From: an uncultured Akkermansia sp.
GTDB taxonomy: Bacteria > Verrucomicrobiota > Verrucomicrobiia > Verrucomicrobiales > Akkermansiaceae
Length of the DNA: 33,303 nt
Reading direction: 5' to 3'
NCBI GenBank assembly: GCA_947629715.1
Contig: CANRET010000022.1
Span: 1-33,303 of the forward strand
Each line of letters starts with the position of its first letter. Within the stretch, counting starts at the first letter, position 1. The notes beneath the pieces are model-generated. The model was not told where the DNA came from and did no database searches. It saw only the letters and a list, made by a program, of their open reading frames with translations. Shown here one piece after another: positions 12,994 through 33,043 of this stretch. The translations under genes were made by a program, and so were the position numbers.

Positions 12994-14196
12994 TCAGCGG
13001 AGCATGGCGAGGGCTTTTTGGACAGAAGACAGCGCGCGCCGTACATCATCCGAATTATTGTAGAGAGCTACGGAGAAGCGTGTTGTTCCGGTGATGCCGA
13101 GGGATTGCATGAGGGGTTGGCAGCAGTGGTGTCCGGTACGCACGGCGATGTTCATTTGGTCGAGCAATGAGCCAAGATCGTAGTGATGGACGTCAGGTAT
13201 GTGGATGGATACAAGCGAACCGCGCGAAGCATTGCCACCAAGCAACTGCACTTGAGGAAGCTGTTGCAGACCCTCACAGAGTTCATGCATCAGTTTCGCT
13301 TCATGCTCACGAATGGCGGGCAGACCGATGCGCTGTACGTAGCTGAGGGCTTCTGCGAGCGCGATATTACCGCCGATGTTGGGAGTGCCTGCTTCAAACT
13401 TGAAGGGAAGTTTGTTGTAAGAGGTGTGCGTGAAAGTGACCTGGCTAATCATTTCTCCGCCGCTTTTCCAAGGAGGAAGCCTGTCGAGCAATTCTTCGCG
13501 TCCCCACAGGGCGCCGGTAGCTGTGGGTGCGTACACTTTGTGTCCGGAAAAAGCGAAAAAGTCGCAACCGAGCGTTTTCACGTTCACCTCTTCATGGGCC
13601 ACGCTCTGCGCCCCATCGAGCAGGACGAGCGCTCCGGCATCATGAGCCGCTTTCGTGATGTCCTCCACCGGCAGACGCAATCCCAGTGCGTTGGAGATCA
13701 CCGGCACGGCTACCACACGCGTTCGCTTGCTGAGCATGCTCAGGAAGGCGGGCATATCGAAGAATAGCTCGGGGGTGAGAGGGACGGGTTTCAGGTTGGC
13801 TCCCCTGCGCTCGCAGAGCATCTGCCATGGTACAATGTTAGAGTGGTGCGCATCGGTTGGCACCAAAATTTCATCTCCGGCTTTCACGATATCGGTGAGA
13901 GCGAGTGTCTGTGCAACGAGGTTGATGCCTTCGGTGCAGCCAGAGGTAAAGACGATTTCCCTCTCCGACGGGGCGTGAAGGAATCGGGCAACAGAACTGC
14001 GGGCAGCTTCGTGGGCGTCGGTAGCCTCACGACTCAGGCGGTGGGCGCCTCGGTGGACGTTGGCGTTGAAAAACTCGTAGAAGCGGCGCGCGGCGTCCAG
14101 CACACATGCAGGCTTTTGAGTGGTTGCGGCGTTGTCGAGGTATATCGGTGCATTATGCGCTGCATGGAAGAAAGGGAAGTCATCGCGAGCATTCAT
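12994..14196 (-). CDS. sufS: cysteine desulfurase, SufS type
   Basis: Group II cysteine desulfurase of 400 aa. This PLP enzyme takes sulfur from cysteine as a persulfide for Fe-S cluster assembly. PLP-site residues: ASP-type Asp195 in LLDGAQS, Schiff-base Lys220 in FSGHKVY, and the HHSN motif (117-120). The active-site loop RTGHHCCQP holds catalytic Cys358; the next residue, usually Ala, is a second Cys here. The ATG overlaps the stop of the upstream unknown gene (ATGA, 14193-14196), so translation is probably coupled. No sufBCD or sufE/U is in the window, unusual for a sufS that normally sits in a suf operon. Confidence 0.94.
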   Translation of the reverse strand: MNARDDFPFFHAAHNAPIYLDNAATTQKPACVLDAARRFYEFFNANVHRGAHRLSREATDAHEAARSSVARFLHAPSEREIVFTSGCTEGINLVAQTLALTDIVKAGDEILVPTDAHHSNIVPWQMLCERRGANLKPVPLTPELFFDMPAFLSMLSKRTRVVAVPVISNALGLRLPVEDITKAAHDAGALVLLDGAQSVAHEEVNVKTLGCDFFAFSGHKVYAPTATGALWGREELLDRLPPWKSGGEMISQVTFTHTSYNKLPFKFEAGTPNIGGNIALAEALSYVQRIGLPAIREHEAKLMHELCEGLQQLPQVQLLGGNASRGSLVSIHIPDVHHYDLGSLLDQMNIAVRTGHHCCQPLMQSLGITGTTRFSVALYNNSDDVRRALSSVQKALAMLR

Positions 14197-15605
14197 GAGC
14201 TATGGCCTCCTTTCAGGTGTTCAGCCATGCAATGGGCCTGTTCGGGGACGTATTCCTTCCACTGCTCATCGCCCTCGTTGATCATGCGCACAATGTCGCG
14301 GGGCGTGCGCGTGAGGAGTTTTTGGTTAAAATAGGGAACTTCTACAATGCTTCCGTTTTCCATGAGGTGCATGTACAGGAAGCGGTATTTTTCCGGCGGG
14401 CGATAGGTGCCGGCAGTGACGAACTCGCCACTGCTGCGGTTAATCCATGGGGTGACGTAGCACTTGGTTTGGTTCAGGAAGATGTGTGCCATGCTGCCCA
14501 AGATACCGCCCGGCAAGTCAGCTGCCCATTTTTCCTTGAAAAGTTCGTGGAGCAAGCCGATAGAGAGCGCAATGGCCACTGGCTCCTTGGTAAACTGATT
14601 GAGCAAAGTGGAGATGCGGTGGAAGTGCGTGATGTTAGTCACCAGAACGGTTTTCCTCAGTGCAGAGAGAGCATCTACGCGGTCGAGAAAGTCGAGAAGA
14701 TCCACTTCTTCGCCGCGCAAAAGGTTAGAGAGCGATATCTCACAGATATCGATTTCGCGTTCGCGCTGCTCAGGAGTTAAGCCGGAACAGAACTTGGCGC
14801 GCACGCTGTCCATCATCTCCAGGTGGATGTTGCACAGAGGCATAAAACTGCCGCGCATCAGCACAATGGGACGTTTGTAAAGGAAATCGCTGGGCTGTTG
14901 CACGGAGTTGTCCTCCGGGCAGAAAAGTGTGGCTTCCGAGAGTCCGCTGCGCACCAGTTGCAAGGCGAGGATACGGTTGTCGAACATGCTGAAGCCGTTG
15001 CCGGAGAAGCGCATCAGGTCCACTTCGTAAAGACTTCGGTCGAGATTTTCGCCGACGCAACGCACAAACTCCTCCATGCGTTCCCGTTTGTAAAAAAGGG
15101 CGTAGAGCAGGTTGACGCCGAGGATGCCGAGGACGCGTTTTTGAACCTCTTGGTCCGGGACGATGAGGCGCACGTGCATGATGAGATCACTCGGAGGGGC
15201 GCCGGGCTTGAGCTGAAAGCGCACGCCGATCCACGCGGCCCAAGGCCCGTTATCTTTATAGCCCTTGCATTTGGCGGTATTGCAGAAAGAGAAGAAGCAG
15301 GTGTTGGCGCCGCGTTTTTCGCCCAACCGGTCAATAAGCTGCGAATATTCATAATCCATCATTTGGCGAAGTCTCTCCTCAGAGACGTAACGCTGCACGG
15401 AACCGTAGAGCGTATCGCTCACAGTCATGTCATAGGCTGAGATGGTCTTTGCCACCGTACCGGCGGCGCCGGAGGAGCGGAAGAACCAGTTGGCCGTTTC
15501 CTGTCCGGCGCCGATTTCTGCAAACGCGCCGTAGAAGGAATCATCCATGTTGATGAAGAAAGCTTTCTCTTGTGTGGCAGCTAAAGTTTGGAATTCAGTG
15601 GCCAT
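14193..15605 (-). CDS. conserved protein of unknown function, 470 aa
   Basis: Soluble 470-aa protein with no signal peptide or membrane segment. From memory it resembles a widespread uncharacterised bacterial family whose N-terminus reads like YGAFAEIGAGQE...GAAGTVAKTISAYDM, and which is sometimes given doubtful names such as TonB-dependent receptor. That name does not fit a cytoplasmic protein. Other conserved-looking blocks are YVSEERLRQMMDYEYSQL (73-90), ERLGEKRGA-like RLGEKRGA (93-100), LGVNLLYALFY and VLMRGSF. Cysteines 103, 108 and 113 form a C-x4-C-x4-C cluster. It lies between a class A PBP (14-base gap) and sufS (4-base overlap). A tie to sulfur or cofactor metabolism is only inferred from sufS. 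Confidence 0.85.
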   Translation of the reverse strand: MATEFQTLAATQEKAFFINMDDSFYGAFAEIGAGQETANWFFRSSGAAGTVAKTISAYDMTVSDTLYGSVQRYVSEERLRQMMDYEYSQLIDRLGEKRGANTCFFSFCNTAKCKGYKDNGPWAAWIGVRFQLKPGAPPSDLIMHVRLIVPDQEVQKRVLGILGVNLLYALFYKRERMEEFVRCVGENLDRSLYEVDLMRFSGNGFSMFDNRILALQLVRSGLSEATLFCPEDNSVQQPSDFLYKRPIVLMRGSFMPLCNIHLEMMDSVRAKFCSGLTPEQREREIDICEISLSNLLRGEEVDLLDFLDRVDALSALRKTVLVTNITHFHRISTLLNQFTKEPVAIALSIGLLHELFKEKWAADLPGGILGSMAHIFLNQTKCYVTPWINRSSGEFVTAGTYRPPEKYRFLYMHLMENGSIVEVPYFNQKLLTRTPRDIVRMINEGDEQWKEYVPEQAHCMAEHLKGGHSS

Positions 15606-15619
15606 GGTGGGAAGGGTGT

Positions 15620-18238
15620 TCAGAGTTGAAGCGGCATGGTGGGTAAGTAGCGCAGGGGAAGGGGCATACGAAGGTCGATATTCGTGTTCACTCTGGCCTC
15701 ATCGTCGGCATCCGGAGTCTCATCCGCCGGCAGGGCGTCTTCCTCGGTCAGTACTCGTGCTTCGCCGGATGTGTTGACGGCGTCTTTATACTTGGGATTG
15801 ATCGTGAGCGTGCATCCGTAGGGATCCTGACCGATGAGGGCGAGTCCCTGCGGCAGGATCGGGGCGATCGGCAGCACGCGCGAAAATGCATTCCGTCCGC
15901 GCGTGTCGAGCAGATCTCGCAGGGAGGGGCTGCCGTCGCCGTGGACGGTGCAGGAACTCAGCGAGACATCCCCTTTCGGAAAGTACTCCACGTAAGTAGG
16001 ACGGACGTAACCCGGCTTACCGTTTTCGGTGACGGTTTCGTAGCAAAAGTTGGTAGCCACTTGACCGCTGTTCTTGCAAATTTCGACGGCTTCTACATCG
16101 GGCGGCGGTAGAATTTTCTTATCTTCGTACTTGCCCGCTGCAGCTCGCATAACTTCTCTGAGTATTGGTCCACAGACGTCCGTGGCAAAGGCTTCCGGGT
16201 AGATGGCTTTGCGGTCGTTGAGGAAGCCGATCCAAATTCCGCAAGTGAACGAAGAAGTGTATCCGAAGATTGATGCGTCTGCAAAGTCGTAATTGGTGCC
16301 GCTCTTCACAGCTCCGTTGAACTGCGTCGGCAGATAGGGGCGAATTCTCGTGCCGGAGCCCTCCTTGAGCGACTCATGCATGATGGAATGAAGACGGAAA
16401 GCAGTGCAGGGAGAGACGCTGCTGTGCATACGCCCGGAGATGTGCAGAGGGTTTTCCCAAAGGACGGTTCCCTTGCTGTCCGTCACTTTGGTGATGACGT
16501 AGGGGGTGATTGGGCGTCTGCCGCAGTTGGGGAAGATGGTGTAGGCCATCACCATTTCCTTGAGCGAGGCCGGTTCCGTGCCGAGGTAAACCCTTGGGTA
16601 GTACACGGGGTGTGCTTCGGTGCTGTTTGGGTTGCGCGGCGGCGGGGTGATTCCTGCTTTAGCGAGGGTTTTGATGAAGGGGCGTGCAGCTTTGCCGCTA
16701 CGCGCGCTCAAAGCCATCCCCAAGCGAGCGGAGGCTGCTATCTTCGACCACTCTAAAGCCTGTCGAGCCGTTACGGTATCCATGTAGCGTCCCTTTTCCA
16801 CCTCCATGCCCCACTCCCCGAGGATGCCTTCCGTTCCCCCTATGCCGGCCAAGCGGTTGTCCATGGCATCGTCCACCAGACGGGAGCATGGGGTATAGCC
16901 GTTGTCAAAGGCACACATATAGAGGAAAGGCAGCAGGGCCGTACCCATCGGACGTTTTCCGCTTTCGATGATATCGAAGTTGTCGCGTTCAAAATCACGA
17001 CCGGCCACATAGACAAGGGTTGCTCCGGTACGGTTATCTACGGCGTACACGGCGCCGTCCAAGTAGCGGTGGCGGTCATTGTTCGGGTCGCGCAGGTCCG
17101 TGTAGCGCTCATGGTTGTAATCACCACGTTCTTCAATGGCGAGGAGCTGGCGTTGCAGAGCTTGCTCGGCGGCGCGTTGCAAGTCGGCGTCAATGGTTGT
17201 ATGGATGCGTATGCCGGCGCTTTTCACAATTTCTTCGCCGCGTTCCGGATTGTCATAAAGGCTGATAGCCTGCTGTTGCACAAGGGCGTGCAGGAATGAA
17301 GTATGGCGTCGCAGGGGGGTCGGGTTGATTTCGAGCGGCTGTTTTTTGACGCGCTCGGCTTCTTTGAGACTCAGGTAGCCGGAACGCTGCATGCGGTCAA
17401 TGACATCATTTCGCCAGCGCATGTTGAGTTCCGGATTGCGGATCGGGTTGTAGTTTTCGGGGTTTTTGATGAGGGCGGCAAGGCTGGCGGATTCGCGCAC
17501 GGTGAGATCGCGAGGCTCTTTGCCGAAGTACCCCAAAGCGGCGGCACGAATGCCGTAGTACCCACGACCGAAGTAGATGCGGTTCAGATAGAATTCAATG
17601 ATCTGCTTCTTGTCGTAACGCTTCTCCAAACGCCTTGCCAAGAAGATTTCCACGACTTTGCGCTCGTAGCGAGTGCCGCCTTTCACAAGTGTACGTCGTT
17701 CCAAGTCGTAGGCGTTGCGTGCCAGTTGCTGCGTAATGGTTGATGCTCCCTGGTTGGCGCGACCATGGGAAAAAAGAGTCTCTTTGAAGGCACGCAATAT
17801 GCCCATAGGATCGTACCCATGGTGAGTCCAGAACGTCTTGTCCTCTTGAGCTACCAGAGCATCCAACATGCTACGCGAGATATCTTTGATTTCCACGTAG
17901 CTGCGGTTTTCATCAAAGATGCGTCCGATTTCTCGTCCTTTGCAGTCGTAGATGATGCATGGGTGGTCCAGATTATTGACATCTTCGAGATTGAACTCAT
18001 CTGCCCATCGGCTGTATTTGGAGGTGATCATAACAAACGCTCCGTAGCCCAAAACGGCACACAGCACGACTATCACCAGCCCCATGAGAAGCAGGCGCCA
18101 CAACACGCCGCGCCATCGGCCCCCGGTGCGTTTTGAACCCTCCCTGCGTTTGCCCCCCCCCACTCGATGCCCTTCAGCCATTGCGCGGCGGTGCAGATAG
18201 TCATCATCCAACGCCACTACGCGCGCAGTGTAACACAT
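15620..18238 (-). CDS. class A PBP-like peptidoglycan glycosyltransferase with degenerate transpeptidase
   Basis: PBP1A-like protein of 872 aa: basic cytoplasmic N-terminus, one membrane segment (about 46-71), GT51 domain, then a transpeptidase-fold domain. GT51 looks intact: catalytic Glu132 in QEDKTFWTHHGYD, QGASTITQQLARN (163-175), RKVVEIFLARRLE with Glu197, IIEFYLNRIYFG (213-224). The transpeptidase motifs are all altered. SxxK reads GTALLP (432-437), with Thr433 replacing the nucleophile and Leu436 the lysine. SxN reads SKI (498-500), and KTG reads KSG (645-647). It should polymerise glycan from lipid II but probably cannot cross-link or bind beta-lactams. ATG 18238 agrees with the predicted promoter; ATG 18181 (MAEGHRV) is an alternative start. 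It is the first gene of a three-gene operon. Confidence 0.9.
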   Translation of the reverse strand: MCYTARVVALDDDYLHRRAMAEGHRVGGGKRREGSKRTGGRWRGVLWRLLLMGLVIVVLCAVLGYGAFVMITSKYSRWADEFNLEDVNNLDHPCIIYDCKGREIGRIFDENRSYVEIKDISRSMLDALVAQEDKTFWTHHGYDPMGILRAFKETLFSHGRANQGASTITQQLARNAYDLERRTLVKGGTRYERKVVEIFLARRLEKRYDKKQIIEFYLNRIYFGRGYYGIRAAALGYFGKEPRDLTVRESASLAALIKNPENYNPIRNPELNMRWRNDVIDRMQRSGYLSLKEAERVKKQPLEINPTPLRRHTSFLHALVQQQAISLYDNPERGEEIVKSAGIRIHTTIDADLQRAAEQALQRQLLAIEERGDYNHERYTDLRDPNNDRHRYLDGAVYAVDNRTGATLVYVAGRDFERDNFDIIESGKRPMGTALLPFLYMCAFDNGYTPCSRLVDDAMDNRLAGIGGTEGILGEWGMEVEKGRYMDTVTARQALEWSKIAASARLGMALSARSGKAARPFIKTLAKAGITPPPRNPNSTEAHPVYYPRVYLGTEPASLKEMVMAYTIFPNCGRRPITPYVITKVTDSKGTVLWENPLHISGRMHSSVSPCTAFRLHSIMHESLKEGSGTRIRPYLPTQFNGAVKSGTNYDFADASIFGYTSSFTCGIWIGFLNDRKAIYPEAFATDVCGPILREVMRAAAGKYEDKKILPPPDVEAVEICKNSGQVATNFCYETVTENGKPGYVRPTYVEYFPKGDVSLSSCTVHGDGSPSLRDLLDTRGRNAFSRVLPIAPILPQGLALIGQDPYGCTLTINPKYKDAVNTSGEARVLTEEDALPADETPDADDEARVNTNIDLRMPLPLRYLPTMPLQL

Positions 18239-18334: not shown

Positions 18335-20065
18335 ATGACAATGGCAAGCATCATGAAGTTTCACTTTTTGATTTTTGGTGCCTTGGTCGTCTCCGAGATA
18401 GTGATGGCGCAACAGGAGCCTGTGACAGATCAGGTTGCTGAACCGCCGGGTGGTTTTCCGTTGCCGCCGTCTCCGGCTGAGCCCCCCGTTCAGACTCCGC
18501 AGACTGATGGCCAAGTAGCCGAGGGGCTCCTTCCCTCATCGTCGCCGCAACAGGCAGTTGTGCCTGAGTCTCCGGCGGTGTCTGCTTCGAGCGACGAGTT
18601 GACTGCACAGTCGGAGGCAGCCCAGGCATCCGAAAAAGAGAGAAAAATTCCGGGGAGGTCTCAAGAACTTTCCTCGGCTTACCGAGGGATTGTGAAGGTT
18701 GAGGTAGCCAATCGGGTGCCGGACTACGCGATGCCGTGGCGTTCGGGACAGTTCGGGCGCGGAACGGGGACGGGCTTCATGGTGGCTCCCGGGGTCTTCA
18801 TGACCAATGCGCACGTGGTAGCCAACGCGCAGCGCATTTATGTGTCGCCGTACGCGGATGCGCGAAAGATACCAGCCAAAGTCGCGTATGTGGCACACGA
18901 TGCGGATTTAGCTTTGATTAAGGTGCTGGATGAGACAGCTTTTGCGGGTGTTCCTTCCTTGGAATTCAGCGATCGGATGCCCAAGCTGGAGGACCAGGTG
19001 CGCGCCATCGGGTTTCCCATCGGCGGGGACCGTCTTTCTGTCACTCGAGGCATTGTTTCGCGCATAGATACGATACCGTACGCTCATCCCTTCAATGAAT
19101 CCCACCTCATCGTGCAGATTGATGCCGCCATCAATCCGGGTAACAGCGGGGGCCCTGTACTTATGGGAGACAAAGTGGTGGGAGTAGCGTTTCAAGGGCT
19201 TTTGCAGGCTAATTCCACCGGCTATATGATCCCCTTGCCGGTGATTCGTCGATTTTTGAAAGATGTGGAAGATGGTCGTTATGATCGTTACGTGGATCTC
19301 GGCGCCACGTTTTTCCCAATTCAGAATCCGGCTATGCATCGCCACTTCGGATTGCCGGATAATGCCATGGGTGCGTTGGTCGGCGAGGTGGTACCGGGAA
19401 GTTCCTGTCACGGACGTTTGCAGGTGGGTGATGTGGTGTTAGCGGTGGATGGACACGGCGTGGATAATTCAGCAATGATTGAATTGGAAGGCGAGCGCGT
19501 GAAACTTGAGGAACTTGCGGAACGTTCTTTTTCTACGGATGAGCTTACTTTCACCGTTCTACGCGATGGTGAGAAGAGGACGGTGAAAGTAAATCCTCGC
19601 CCGATTGAAGCTTATCGCATCATGGGAAACGAATTTGATGAACGTCCTCGATACGTGCTTTTTGCAGGCTTGTTGTTCCAACCGCTGCAGCGGGACGTGA
19701 TTCGTGCACATAACCTTGACCCCAATAACTTTATTGTGGAGTTGGATGAGTTCATTCGCGGAGGAGCGTCGCTTCACAAGGACGATATCGTGGTACTCAC
19801 CGACGTGCTGCGTGATGAGGTGAACGCTCGTTTCTCTGAGTACGGTTCAGGTATTGTCAGCAGGGTGAATGGACAAGAGGTGAAAGGTTTGAATCATCTT
19901 TACAGCCTGCTCTTTCCTGAAGGCGGCAAGCGAGAGGGGGAGTACACAGTCATTGAATTCAAGGATGCTCCCCGTCCCTTTGTAGTGGAAAACTCAGCAT
20001 TGCCAGCGGCACATGCGCGTATTCGCGCCAGCTACAACGTGTCGGAAACTGCCCGCCTGAATTAA
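18335..20065 (+). CDS. secreted HtrA/Deg-type serine protease with PDZ domain
   Basis: Trypsin-fold HtrA/Deg family protease of 576 aa, for periplasmic or cell-surface quality control. A signal peptide covers residues 1-25 (FLIFGALVVSEIVMA, cleavage before QQ). A Pro/Ser/Gln-rich linker runs to about 105. The catalytic domain (about 115-310) has a complete triad: His160 in TNAHVV, Asp191 in HDADLALIKV, Ser271 in NPGNSGGPV. A PDZ domain follows (about 325-425; GRLQVGDVVLAVDG). The C-terminal region beginning RYVLFAGLLFQPL (about 441) resembles the modified second PDZ of plant Deg9-like proteases. ATG 18341 is better spaced from AGAGGG than ATG 18335, so the start may be two codons in. A degenerate paralogue follows after 20 bases. 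Confidence 0.92.
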   Translation: MTMASIMKFHFLIFGALVVSEIVMAQQEPVTDQVAEPPGGFPLPPSPAEPPVQTPQTDGQVAEGLLPSSSPQQAVVPESPAVSASSDELTAQSEAAQASEKERKIPGRSQELSSAYRGIVKVEVANRVPDYAMPWRSGQFGRGTGTGFMVAPGVFMTNAHVVANAQRIYVSPYADARKIPAKVAYVAHDADLALIKVLDETAFAGVPSLEFSDRMPKLEDQVRAIGFPIGGDRLSVTRGIVSRIDTIPYAHPFNESHLIVQIDAAINPGNSGGPVLMGDKVVGVAFQGLLQANSTGYMIPLPVIRRFLKDVEDGRYDRYVDLGATFFPIQNPAMHRHFGLPDNAMGALVGEVVPGSSCHGRLQVGDVVLAVDGHGVDNSAMIELEGERVKLEELAERSFSTDELTFTVLRDGEKRTVKVNPRPIEAYRIMGNEFDERPRYVLFAGLLFQPLQRDVIRAHNLDPNNFIVELDEFIRGGASLHKDDIVVLTDVLRDEVNARFSEYGSGIVSRVNGQEVKGLNHLYSLLFPEGGKREGEYTVIEFKDAPRPFVVENSALPAAHARIRASYNVSETARLN

Positions 20066-20085: not shown

Positions 20086-21705
20086 ATGATCATTATGAAC
20101 AAATTCCAGCAAACAGCATTCCTGCTTTTTACACTATGCGTAGCCCTGCTCGGGTCCTGTAAACCCACGCCGCGCACGGCCAACGACCATCGAGCCGAAA
20201 CGGAACGACTGGAGGATGAGCACCAAGTGGTGTCCCGAACAATGGACGAAGCCGAAGTTGTTTCTCCCACCCGGCAGACAGCCGCTGACCTGCTCTACGT
20301 CTGCGTCACTTACCGCAGCTACAACCCTTATCGTCCTTGGGAAATGGAGGCCGGGCACTTTGTGAAGACGAGTGGCGTGTATCTTGGTAATGGGCAAGTG
20401 TTAACCACAGCCGGTAAGCTGCCCACTGCCACTTATCTTGAGTTGCGTTTGCCGGATCAGTCACGCGCCGTGCCGGCGAGAGTTATCAAGGCGGACCCCG
20501 ATACTAATTTAGCACTTGTCACGGTGCAGCACGAGGACGATGCCGATATTTTTGACAAGGTATCTGCGCATGAGGTGGGGGCGCCATTGATGATCGGAGA
20601 TGTGGCACAGCTGCAAAGTTTGATTAATGATACGGAGCCTGTTCAGGTGGATGTGCGGGCCGAGAGCGCTAACGAGCACGCGGCCTTAATTCCTCTCATG
20701 ACGATGCGTTCGCACGCTCCGCTGCCGCAGATGATTGAGCCGGGAATGCCGTTGCTTAAGAATGGGCGAATTGTGGGGCTGGTACACAATTATGAGTCAA
20801 ATAGCCAGTCACTCAATATCATCAATGCTGAGATGATTCGGCGTTTCCTGCTCCAAGAGTCAGACAGCTCCGGGGTTCCGGTTATAGGGGGAGGAATGAC
20901 TCTGCTCAACGATCCGGTGTTTCGTAAATACCTCAAGCTTGAAGACGGGACCAATGGTTTGTATGTAAGCGAACTCGTCCCCGTTGGTTCAGCGGCTGCA
21001 GCTGGTATCAGAAAGGGGGATGTCATCGTGTCCGTGGAGGACATGCCCGTCAACGCCTCCGGGGTTTGCAATCACCCCATCTACGGAAAAATCAGCGTGC
21101 CCATGGTGATTCGAAGTCTCAAGCCCTGCGGAGAGAGTGTGACGCTGGGTGTGATACGCGATGGAAAGCCGTTCCGCGTGAGCGTGCCGCTCAACCACGA
21201 TGCTCTCGACAAGTCTCCCATTCGCCGGGAAAAGCAGGGAACTCCTCCACGTTACGTCATGTGGGGAGGAATGCTTTTTCAACCACTCACACACAATTAT
21301 TTAGATGCTCTGGAGGCTCGAGTCGGCTCTCTTCCCATTTCCTTTGTACGCGCCAAACACGATGTCGAGGAACTTCTGAAACAGGGGCGAACAGAACCTG
21401 TTGCGCTTACGCTCTTGATCCCAACTCCTGCAACTTTGGGCTATGATTCTTTGGGCTTCTGTGTGGTGGAGAAAGTAAACGGAGAACTTGTGCGCTCTCT
21501 GGAGCATTTCGCTGAGCTGTTGGATGCTCCTACTCCGGATGGCACGGTGGAATTCACCATTGACCGCGCACCCTACAAGATCTATATGGACCAGCAACTT
21601 GCCAACGCGAGCAACGATGTCCTGAGACGCAACGCGATACCGAACCTGAGACGTCTGAGGGAGGCAACCCGAGATGAGAGTTCCGTTGTTGAAAGGAGGC
21701 ATTAA
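20086..21705 (+). CDS. lipoprotein pseudoprotease, HtrA/Deg paralogue with lost triad
   Basis: 539-aa paralogue of the preceding protease, with the same domain order. The N-terminus is a lipoprotein signal (LFTLCVALLGSC, lipidated Cys25). The trypsin-like domain keeps VLTTAGKLPTATYLELRL, where Gly110 replaces the catalytic His. Asp139 in DPDTNLALVTV is retained. The NSGGP nucleophile loop is shortened to IEPGMPLLKNG (217-227), with no serine. A PDZ domain follows (about 280-365; GIRKGDVIVSVED), then YVMWGGMLFQPL, the counterpart of YVLFAGLLFQPL upstream. Proteolysis is very unlikely. A substrate-binding, scaffold or regulatory role with the active neighbour is inferred. ATG 20095 is an alternative start. 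Confidence 0.9.
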   Translation: MIIMNKFQQTAFLLFTLCVALLGSCKPTPRTANDHRAETERLEDEHQVVSRTMDEAEVVSPTRQTAADLLYVCVTYRSYNPYRPWEMEAGHFVKTSGVYLGNGQVLTTAGKLPTATYLELRLPDQSRAVPARVIKADPDTNLALVTVQHEDDADIFDKVSAHEVGAPLMIGDVAQLQSLINDTEPVQVDVRAESANEHAALIPLMTMRSHAPLPQMIEPGMPLLKNGRIVGLVHNYESNSQSLNIINAEMIRRFLLQESDSSGVPVIGGGMTLLNDPVFRKYLKLEDGTNGLYVSELVPVGSAAAAGIRKGDVIVSVEDMPVNASGVCNHPIYGKISVPMVIRSLKPCGESVTLGVIRDGKPFRVSVPLNHDALDKSPIRREKQGTPPRYVMWGGMLFQPLTHNYLDALEARVGSLPISFVRAKHDVEELLKQGRTEPVALTLLIPTPATLGYDSLGFCVVEKVNGELVRSLEHFAELLDAPTPDGTVEFTIDRAPYKIYMDQQLANASNDVLRRNAIPNLRRLREATRDESSVVERRH

Positions 21706-29822: not shown

Positions 29823-30758
29823 ATGCAAGCTGTTCTTTTATTTCCCGGTCAAGGCGCCCAGAAAGTGGGCATGGGACATGATTTGTACACGGCAAACGCT
29901 ACGGCTCGTGAACTGATGGATCAAGCGGATGCCGCGCTCGGCGTTTCCCTTACCAAGGTGATGTTCGATGGTCCGGATGAGGAACTGACCCGGACCTGCT
30001 ATTGCCAACCGGCTCTTTTCCTGCATGGGTTGGTCATTTACAGAATGCTCTGTGAACAGGTGGACGTAGAGCCCGTTGCAGCAGCAGGTCTCTCCCTCGG
30101 TGAGTTTACGGCACACGCCGCCGTGGGAACCTTTACCATGCAGGAGGGGCTGCGCCTCGTCCAAAAGCGCGGCGCTTTCATGGAAGAGGCTTGTCAGGCT
30201 GCCCCTGGCGCGATGGCTGCTCTCATTGGCGGGTCAGATGAAGCTGCGCAAACTCTTGCCGCTGAGTGCGGTGTGGATGTGGCCAATTACAATTGTCCGG
30301 GACAAGTGGTGATTTCCGGTGTGGAAGAAGGCGTGGACGAGGCAGTTGCCCGCGCTAAAGGAGCCGGTTTCAAGCTTGCGAAGAAGCTCAATGTAGCCGG
30401 CGCTTATCACAGTCGGCTCATGAAGAGCGCGCAACAAAAACTCATCCCCGAGTTGGAGTCGGTGCAGATGTCGATGCCGAGTGTGCCGGTTTATTGCAAC
30501 TTCGCGGCCCGTCCCGTGCAGAGTGTGCAGGATATTCGCGATGTGTTGGGGGCGCAGGTTTGCGGTTCCGTCCGTTGGGCTGCCTCCATGCAGGATCTCG
30601 TGAATAAAGGACACCGCCTCTTCATTGAAATGGGTCCCGGAAAGACCTTGGCAGGCATGATGACGCGTATCTGCAAAGAGGCGACCGTTGTTTCCATTGA
30701 GGATGCCGCCACGCTTCAGCAGGCTGTGGAGCAATTGCGCTCCATGCAATCTCTATGA
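29823..30758 (+). CDS. fabD: malonyl-CoA:ACP transacylase
   Basis: FabD of 311 aa, which transfers malonyl from CoA to acyl carrier protein for fatty-acid synthesis. N-terminal LLFPGQGAQKVGMG (5-18); nucleophile Ser91 in GLSLGEF; Arg116 in LVQKRGAFM, which binds the malonyl carboxylate; catalytic His196 in GAYHSRLM; and the terminal IEMGPGKTLAGM. Length is standard. Its stop overlaps the ATG of the PBP2 gene (ATGA, 30755-30758), linking lipid and wall synthesis. The usual fabH, fabG and acpP neighbours are absent. Confidence 0.96.
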   Translation: MQAVLLFPGQGAQKVGMGHDLYTANATARELMDQADAALGVSLTKVMFDGPDEELTRTCYCQPALFLHGLVIYRMLCEQVDVEPVAAAGLSLGEFTAHAAVGTFTMQEGLRLVQKRGAFMEEACQAAPGAMAALIGGSDEAAQTLAAECGVDVANYNCPGQVVISGVEEGVDEAVARAKGAGFKLAKKLNVAGAYHSRLMKSAQQKLIPELESVQMSMPSVPVYCNFAARPVQSVQDIRDVLGAQVCGSVRWAASMQDLVNKGHRLFIEMGPGKTLAGMMTRICKEATVVSIEDAATLQQAVEQLRSMQSL

Positions 30759-33043
30759 GTTTTTCAGCTCACAGCCTGAGGCGGTGCAGCGGGTTGTCGG
30801 TCTCCCTTTTGGCAACGCTCTCCTTTTGCGTTTGGGGAGAGCCGGAGCAGTCGCCCGCACTGCCGCCAAGCGATGCCGCATCCATCCCGGATGACGTGAA
30901 TGCCGTGCCTGTGGACGAGGAAGAAGACGTGGTGGAAACGGTGAAGTTGGGAGGTGAGGATCGCGTGCCGGCGCAGGAACAGGGGGTGCAGCAGGATGAT
31001 GCTGACGCCACGTTGATAGATTCTTCTTCTCCGTTGCGCGTGGAGGGGCTTCCGGAAGAAATCCCTCTGCACGTGCTTGGGGAGGGAGTTCCGTTGGAGA
31101 TCAACAACGAGCCTTCGATCCATGATCCTTCGCGAGTTGCCTATGCCAGCACGCGAAAAAACGCGCGAACCATGTCCCTTTCCATTCCGGCGCCGCGTGG
31201 AATGATCACCGATCGTGAAGGCCGCATCTATGCGTGCTCTGAGGTTGCATTTCAACCGGCTATTGACTATCGTACCGTGAAGGATGTGAGCGAGAAGGAG
31301 ATTGTGCAGATTGGTCGGCGCGTGATGGCTGACTTTGAGGCCGCCGGTTTCAAACTGAGCGAAAAGACCGATGAGCAGCTGCTGAGTCACTACAGAGACC
31401 GCCGTTGGTTGCCTCTTCCGGTGGGACCGGCGGTGCGTCATGGACAACTCACAAAAAAGATGAGAGAAAGAGCCGAAAAGGTGAGGTGCGGAATGCTCAT
31501 GAGCCTCTACCTGCGGCTTTATCCTGCCAAAGAGAGCGCTTGCCACATCCTCGGTTATACCGGTTCGCCGTCTAAGCTCCCCGTTGGCCCCATCAATCAC
31601 AACGACCCTATCTTTGAACGTCGTGAGGGACGTTTTGGCTTAGAAAAGCAGTTTAATAAGCAGCTCATTGGGCGTCCGGGCATTTGGCGTCTCATGTTTG
31701 ATGAGCAAGGCAATAAAATTTTAGATGAACTCCAAGTGAAGCCATGTCCCGGTCATACCCTCGTGACTACGCTTAACATGGAGTGGCAAAAAATAGCAGA
31801 AAAAACACTGCGTGAAAACACGATCGGACGTGGAGCTTTCGTCTTGTTGGATATACACACCGGGGAAGTGCTGGTGCTTGCTTCCGTACCTAACTACGAT
31901 CCTAACGCCTTCATCCCTTCCATCTCTCAAAAAGACTATGATGCTCTACGCTCCGACAAGAGCACACCGCTTGTTTCGCGAGCTTTCGCCGGCGTATATC
32001 CTCCGGCTTCCACCTTCAAAACTATCACTATTGCCGCTGCTTTGCGCTACCGTGTCATCAACGAAAACACGGTTATCCACTGTCCGCAGAGCATCATGAT
32101 TGGTAATCACCGTTTTCGCAATCACAGCGCTTTCGCTGGCAGCATCAATTGTGTTACTGCTATCGTCCTTTCCAATAACCCTTTCATGTACCAGGTGGCT
32201 GCTACTCGCGATCCTCGCATTGGTGCGGCTCGCCTCTGTGAAACGGCTCGTCGCTTCGGCTACGGTTCTGTCACTGGTTTGCCCTTGGCAGACAAAGCGG
32301 GTAATGTGCCAGATGATGCATGGATGTACCGCAACTATGGACGAGGCTTTATGGCCGGCGATGCGGCGAATATGGCCATCGGTCAAGGAGCTCTTTTGGC
32401 CACTCCTCTTCAAGTGGCGCATGCTATATCCGCTATCGCGAACGGGCGCTATCTGCCCAAACTCCAGCTCATTCGCCAAGTGCTCGATCCGGAAGGAAAT
32501 GTGGTGTACCAATTTACACCCACTGTGCAGAACAACATGAGCGATATGTCTGCAGCCCTTGCCGTCGTGCGCAAGGGTATGCGCGCCGTGGTAGCCGGAG
32601 GCACCGGCCATCGCGCTGCCCTGAACTGGATTTCCAATGCCGGGAAAACAGGAACAGCCCAGTGGGGACGCCCATCGGATGATTGTCGCCTTGCCTGGTT
32701 TGCCGGATTTTTGCCGGCGGATAATCCACGCTTTGCGTACGCTGCCCTCTACGAGGGGCGACCTCATCAGAGGATTTCCGGCGGTCATGTCGCAGCGGCC
32801 ATTGTGCGAAACTTTTTCAATGCGGTTCGTCCTGGTATTGAGGCGGCTTTAAAAAATGAAGTCCCTCGCGCCACAATGGCTGACGGGCAGGAGGCTTTTG
32901 CAGAGGATGAGGCCGTTGATCCGGAAGAAGAAGCAGCCCTTGAGCGTGCCTCGCACGAGGATGAAGAACGCGCGAAAAAGGAGGAAGCCACACGCAAGCG
33001 TCGTCAACAATCGGGGTGGGACGACGGTCGCTCTCGTCATTGA
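30755..33043 (+). CDS. mrdA: class B penicillin-binding protein 2 (elongasome transpeptidase)
   Basis: 762-aa class B PBP; family members are usually about 600-650 aa. It would cross-link peptidoglycan during cell elongation. Residues about 13-28 (GLSVSLLATLSFCVWG) are a short hydrophobic stretch more like a signal peptide than a full anchor. An acidic linker (about 30-140) follows, then the dimerisation domain beginning APRGMITDREGRIYA (146-160). The transpeptidase motifs are intact: S419TFK, S473NN and K631TG. The last 80 residues are acidic, then very basic. mrdA is preferred over the division PBP ftsI because of the GRFGLEKQFNKQLIGRPG and LADKAGNVPD features; this is a judgement. It is coupled to fabD by a 4-base overlap. 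Confidence 0.9.
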   Translation: MSFSAHSLRRCSGLSVSLLATLSFCVWGEPEQSPALPPSDAASIPDDVNAVPVDEEEDVVETVKLGGEDRVPAQEQGVQQDDADATLIDSSSPLRVEGLPEEIPLHVLGEGVPLEINNEPSIHDPSRVAYASTRKNARTMSLSIPAPRGMITDREGRIYACSEVAFQPAIDYRTVKDVSEKEIVQIGRRVMADFEAAGFKLSEKTDEQLLSHYRDRRWLPLPVGPAVRHGQLTKKMRERAEKVRCGMLMSLYLRLYPAKESACHILGYTGSPSKLPVGPINHNDPIFERREGRFGLEKQFNKQLIGRPGIWRLMFDEQGNKILDELQVKPCPGHTLVTTLNMEWQKIAEKTLRENTIGRGAFVLLDIHTGEVLVLASVPNYDPNAFIPSISQKDYDALRSDKSTPLVSRAFAGVYPPASTFKTITIAAALRYRVINENTVIHCPQSIMIGNHRFRNHSAFAGSINCVTAIVLSNNPFMYQVAATRDPRIGAARLCETARRFGYGSVTGLPLADKAGNVPDDAWMYRNYGRGFMAGDAANMAIGQGALLATPLQVAHAISAIANGRYLPKLQLIRQVLDPEGNVVYQFTPTVQNNMSDMSAALAVVRKGMRAVVAGGTGHRAALNWISNAGKTGTAQWGRPSDDCRLAWFAGFLPADNPRFAYAALYEGRPHQRISGGHVAAAIVRNFFNAVRPGIEAALKNEVPRATMADGQEAFAEDEAVDPEEEAALERASHEDEERAKKEEATRKRRQQSGWDDGRSRH

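Follow-up and report, generated by a model that had tools for sequence, protein, structure and literature searches.

A class A penicillin-binding protein family of Verrucomicrobia with an apparently intact glycosyltransferase and a conserved pseudo-transpeptidase domain

Bifunctionality is part of the usual definition of class A penicillin-binding proteins (PBPs), which are also regarded as targets of beta-lactams. What is the role of a class A protein that keeps the catalytic residues of its glycosyltransferase (GT) domain and has lost most of those of its transpeptidase (TP) domain? The question is raised by an open reading frame (ORF) at 15620-18238 on the minus strand of a 33,303-nucleotide stretch of DNA from an uncultured Akkermansia sp. 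(hereafter the window). The initial annotation had proposed that a bifunctional enzyme was here reduced, over the long term, to a GT carrying a pseudo-TP, with the loss of three TP motifs. The length and strand which it gave for the ORF are correct, and the motifs and GT residues discussed below lie at the positions that it named. The genome containing the window is 2.2 Mb in size and 97.6% complete, and its nearest relatives are Akkermansia MAGs from the rabbit gut.

The predicted product is a class A PBP-type protein of 872 aa composed of a TM anchor, a GT51 domain, a linker, the pseudo-TP domain and a Cys-bearing C-terminal tail. The GT51 domain (residues 101-284; 17387-17938, minus strand) scores 198-203 bits with PF00912, and this Transgly model (198 bits) is the sole Pfam match of the ORF. 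The catalytic residues E132 and E197 and the block QGASTITQQLAR are all retained. By parsimony neither Glu changes once among the 113 members on which our statistics for the pseudo-TP family rest, which bears out the earlier impression that this domain is intact. The TP model PF00905 was silent in the same Pfam search, and the pseudo-TP domain (residues ~392-700; 16139-17065, minus strand) is instead recognized through its fold. The predicted model of the protein has a mean pLDDT of 70, with most of the TP core between 80 and 96 and residues 459-483 below 50. It matches the class A PBPs 4oon and 3ue1 with a Z of about 39; therefore the TP fold, as had been supposed, is predicted to be kept.

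Alignments and a sequence scan place T433-A-L-L436 (16931-16942) at the SxxK position, S498-K-I500 (16739-16747) at the SxN position and K645-S-G647 (16298-16306) at the KTG position, all on the minus strand. In a HMMER alignment with P. aeruginosa PBP1a (4oon), GTALLP falls on GSSFKP, SKI on SRN and KSG on KTG. No S..K tetrapeptide occurs anywhere in the 872 aa, and the family alignment holds no alternative conserved Ser/Lys pair in the TP domain, a substitute for which the initial annotation had allowed. Its claim of three lost motifs stands for SxxK and SxN but not for KTG. KSG is an accepted and usual variant of KTG among serine penicillin-recognizing enzymes, and many of the 57 aligned Akkermansia orthologues have an intact KTG; the change is therefore mild and the third motif barely touched.

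Compared with a bifunctional class A PBP, the protein has the GT51 domain with its Glu pair, a TP fold C-terminal to it and KTG in the form of KSG, but neither SxxK nor SxN. The TM anchor, the succession of GT51 and TP fold, the order of the motifs and the structural match all resemble the PBP1A type (TIGR02074; P. aeruginosa 4oon, A. baumannii 3ue1). TIGR02074 is also the nearest NCBIfam model, although its 364 bits lie below the cut-off of 509, and the ORF differs further in lacking the Ser and Lys of SxxK and the Asn of SxN and in having a signature of its own family, E475-W-G477-M-E479 (16802-16816, minus strand; EWGxE), which was found in the family alignment. With the monofunctional glycosyltransferases of the MtgA/SgtB type (TIGR02070) it shares the GT51 domain and the expectation of no working TP. 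Unlike these, it retains an entire TP-fold domain on which selection acts, and its 124 bits with TIGR02070 fall short of the cut-off of 182.65.

Two other GT51 proteins are present in the genome. The first, a class A paralogue on contig C5, has an intact TP domain with SVFK, SRN and KTG (PF00905, 82.7 bits). Such canonical paralogues reach about 620 bits or less in the family-profile lists and form a separate group on the tree, and all 13 canonical class A proteins aligned retain Ser, Lys, SxN and KTG. Two further proteins have a TP domain and no GT51, one of which, at 30755-33043 of the window, carries STFK and KTG in a motif scan and belongs to the class B PBPs. The remaining GT51 protein, on contig C8, has 631 aa (about 600-630 aa in Akkermansia) and keeps GT51, with the regions of SxxK, SxN and KTG all gone. 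This protein (G000 contig C8:39957-40472; L006 and L090; relatives L235-L238), with its shrunken TP domain, represents a second and more extreme TP loss within Akkermansia.

The loss of Ser, Lys and Asn, the intact GT residues, the intact paralogue in the same genome and the age, class-wide spread and purifying selection of the family can be read directly from the sequences; GT activity, the absence of acylation and a scaffold or sensor role are inferred. In the reading that we consider probable, the GT51 domain of the ORF would, most likely, polymerize lipid II, and its TP module would no longer acylate. The TP-fold module would have been retained for a non-catalytic job, whether positioning the GT, docking partners or binding stem peptides, and crosslinking would be left to the class A paralogue on contig C5 and to class B PBPs. 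There are precedents for a TP module with duties beyond catalysis: the class B PBPs PBP2B of B. subtilis and PBP1 of S. aureus are active, and their TP modules are also required for non-catalytic reasons. Those proteins keep their catalytic motifs, whereas in the pseudo-TP family the motifs have gone through evolution.

The altered motifs are not peculiar to the window. T433 and L436 occur in 57 of 57 aligned Akkermansia sequences, and none of these orthologues has the SxxK that would have counted against the initial annotation; SxN is always S-(K/R)-(I/V), and K645 is always Lys and followed by T, S, G or C at 646. Taking a family-profile match above 700 bits as an orthologue, 141 of the 144 sampled genomes of the order carry the family (the exceptions are G088, G113 and G143). 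In the class sample, it is carried by 39 genomes outside the order, from 11 further families, and in the phylum sample no match was found outside the class at E 1e-160. Judged by this distribution, the pseudo-TP family is ancient and spans a large part of one Verrucomicrobia class. A second, diverged copy is found in some genomes of family f2 (L176, L177 and L178 in G129, G156 and G153), with the odd motif combinations TAIT/KGG, SAFL/KSG and TAFA/TTG.

Across the 113 members, position 433 is occupied by Thr in 108 cases, by Ser in the other five and never by another residue. Lys at 436 is retained in 15, of which 11 have Thr433 and four Ser433, and 47 of the 108 Thr members have I, V or T in place of the SxN Asn. 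Akkermansiaceae and several lineages besides share the window's form, without Lys and without Asn; no coupling between the two losses was detectable among the 113 members. Parsimony assigns three steps to T433 and 35 to position 436, against a TP median of 24, and E475, E479 and K645 change zero, one and two times, respectively; G647 is, like K645, strongly conserved. Four members (L143, L152, L215 and L216) have the full Ser/Lys/SxN/KTG set and are nested among Thr members, which makes them candidates for regained TP catalysis. With these four and the 11 Thr members that have Lys, some relatives may be active, a point against the reading that we prefer.

On the whole tree, parsimony gives four Ser/Thr changes and at least nine changes of the Lys, or 18 if Lys cannot be regained. 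In an AU test (38 rows, no mixture model), the four complete Ser members were rejected both as one clade (p-AU 0.0003) and as a group with the canonical proteins (p-AU 0.0001), values to be read with caution in view of the long stems of the Ser members (0.5-0.65) and of the naming of the groups once the tree had been seen. The simplest history suggested by the tree would have one basal change from Ser to Thr; Lys would have been lost several times over, SxN would have eroded and Ser would now and then have come back.

A second position follows the nucleophile. Exactly three changes of G477 are counted, each to Ala or Ser, and they coincide with the three Ser lineages; apart from 433 itself, no other column of the whole protein tells the Ser members from the Thr members. 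As three events are too few for significance in a sign test, this coupling without exceptions is a strong pattern and not proof; on a simple reading, Gly477 would make room for the extra methyl group of Thr. A merely decayed pocket should let Thr drift. Thr433 has not drifted, which means that its hydroxyl, or else the beginning of the helix there, is still of importance. The conserved Thr/Ser hydroxyl, K645 and G647 are not obviously needed by a purely structural domain, and this counts against the explanation that we prefer. In a bolder reading, the pseudo-TP would be a retooled pocket, in which the invariant Thr hydroxyl, Gly477, Glu475/Glu479 and Lys645 bind or react with a stem peptide by a chemistry unseen in serine penicillin-recognizing enzymes; the classical motif set would then have come back at least twice, each time through a reversion to Ser compensated at 477. 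We regard this as unlikely.

One of the two main rivals makes Thr433 itself the working nucleophile, with a base supplied by K645 or by Glu475/Glu479 and not by the SxxK lysine. It would account for Thr or Ser at 433 in 113 of 113 members, for the invariant E475 and nearly invariant E479 and K645, for the coupling with G477 and for the 11 TxxK members, 10 of which also have SxN and KTG/KSG intact. However, most lineages lack the Lys, nearly half of the Thr members have a substituted Asn, and the window's own form lacks both residues. Moreover, Thr or Ser could merely suit a helix start, as the helix predicted at 432-445 begins in the T433 region, and a threonine SxxK enzyme was not found in the open-access papers searched. 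A nucleophilic Thr433 is accordingly judged improbable.

The other main rival, to which we give no better chances, is plain decay, in which the TP domain would be functionless and on its way to being lost. The C8 protein, with none of the three motif regions left, demonstrates that TP decay occurs in Akkermansia. Against this, the TP domain of the pseudo-TP family is full length throughout the order and the class, and at 32 of its 290 columns 95% or more of the Thr members agree. For pairs of close relatives, the median dN/dS is 0.036 in the TP and 0.031 in the GT domain, rough values as many dS are high. The purifying selection on the pseudo-TP thus appears almost equal in strength to that on the GT, and a ratio of about 0.04 largely refutes decay. 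Class-wide spread, a conserved fold and this selection agree with the proposal made at the outset, that the enzyme was reduced over the long term to a GT carrying a pseudo-TP. Nothing was found in favor of an assembly error, frameshift or strain-specific error, which is refuted because the residues recur in dozens of genomes obtained independently, among others from samples of rabbits, ruminants and horses.

No description of an inactive, pseudo or Thr-type class A PBP family was found in the open-access papers searched, and the family is provisionally regarded as undescribed so far. In one survey, Akkermansia is counted as having aPBP, apparently with no remark on an inactive TP (PMC8406291). 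The study of the essential genome of V. spinosum, a species in which gene deletion is established, names class B PBPs and SEDS among the essential proteins, and class A PBPs are absent from its main table (PMC12283558). A family near-universal in one gut and environmental order should polymerize the wall without being a penicillin target, and a GT51 annotation is an unsafe basis for counting crosslinking enzymes. The occurrence of Ser, Thr with Lys, and Thr-only states on one tree is a natural experiment, with which the job of the TP module beyond catalysis, and how GT and TP are coupled, can be tested directly.

The gene neighborhood contains no activator such as LpoA/LpoB. Directly downstream of the ORF in Akkermansia lies a gene for a 470-aa protein (14193-15605, minus strand) without a Pfam or NCBIfam match, and in Akkermansia loci that are long enough the order is the PBP gene, the 470-aa gene and a SufS-type cysteine desulfurase. 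Between Akkermansia species, the 470-aa protein is more conserved than the adjoining PBP. In two more distant loci, L229 of the same genus and L230 of the same family, its gene lies ~1.3-1.7 kb from the PBP gene. The link was not found in loci outside Akkermansiaceae, where none of the neighbors tested was conserved, and therefore it does not explain the function of the pseudo-TP family. On the other side of the ORF are two tandem HtrA-like genes, at 18335-20065 and, on the plus strand, at 20086-21705, which differ as to the trypsin domain: the second has Pfam PDZ matches and no trypsin domain, and its product is possibly a degenerate protease.
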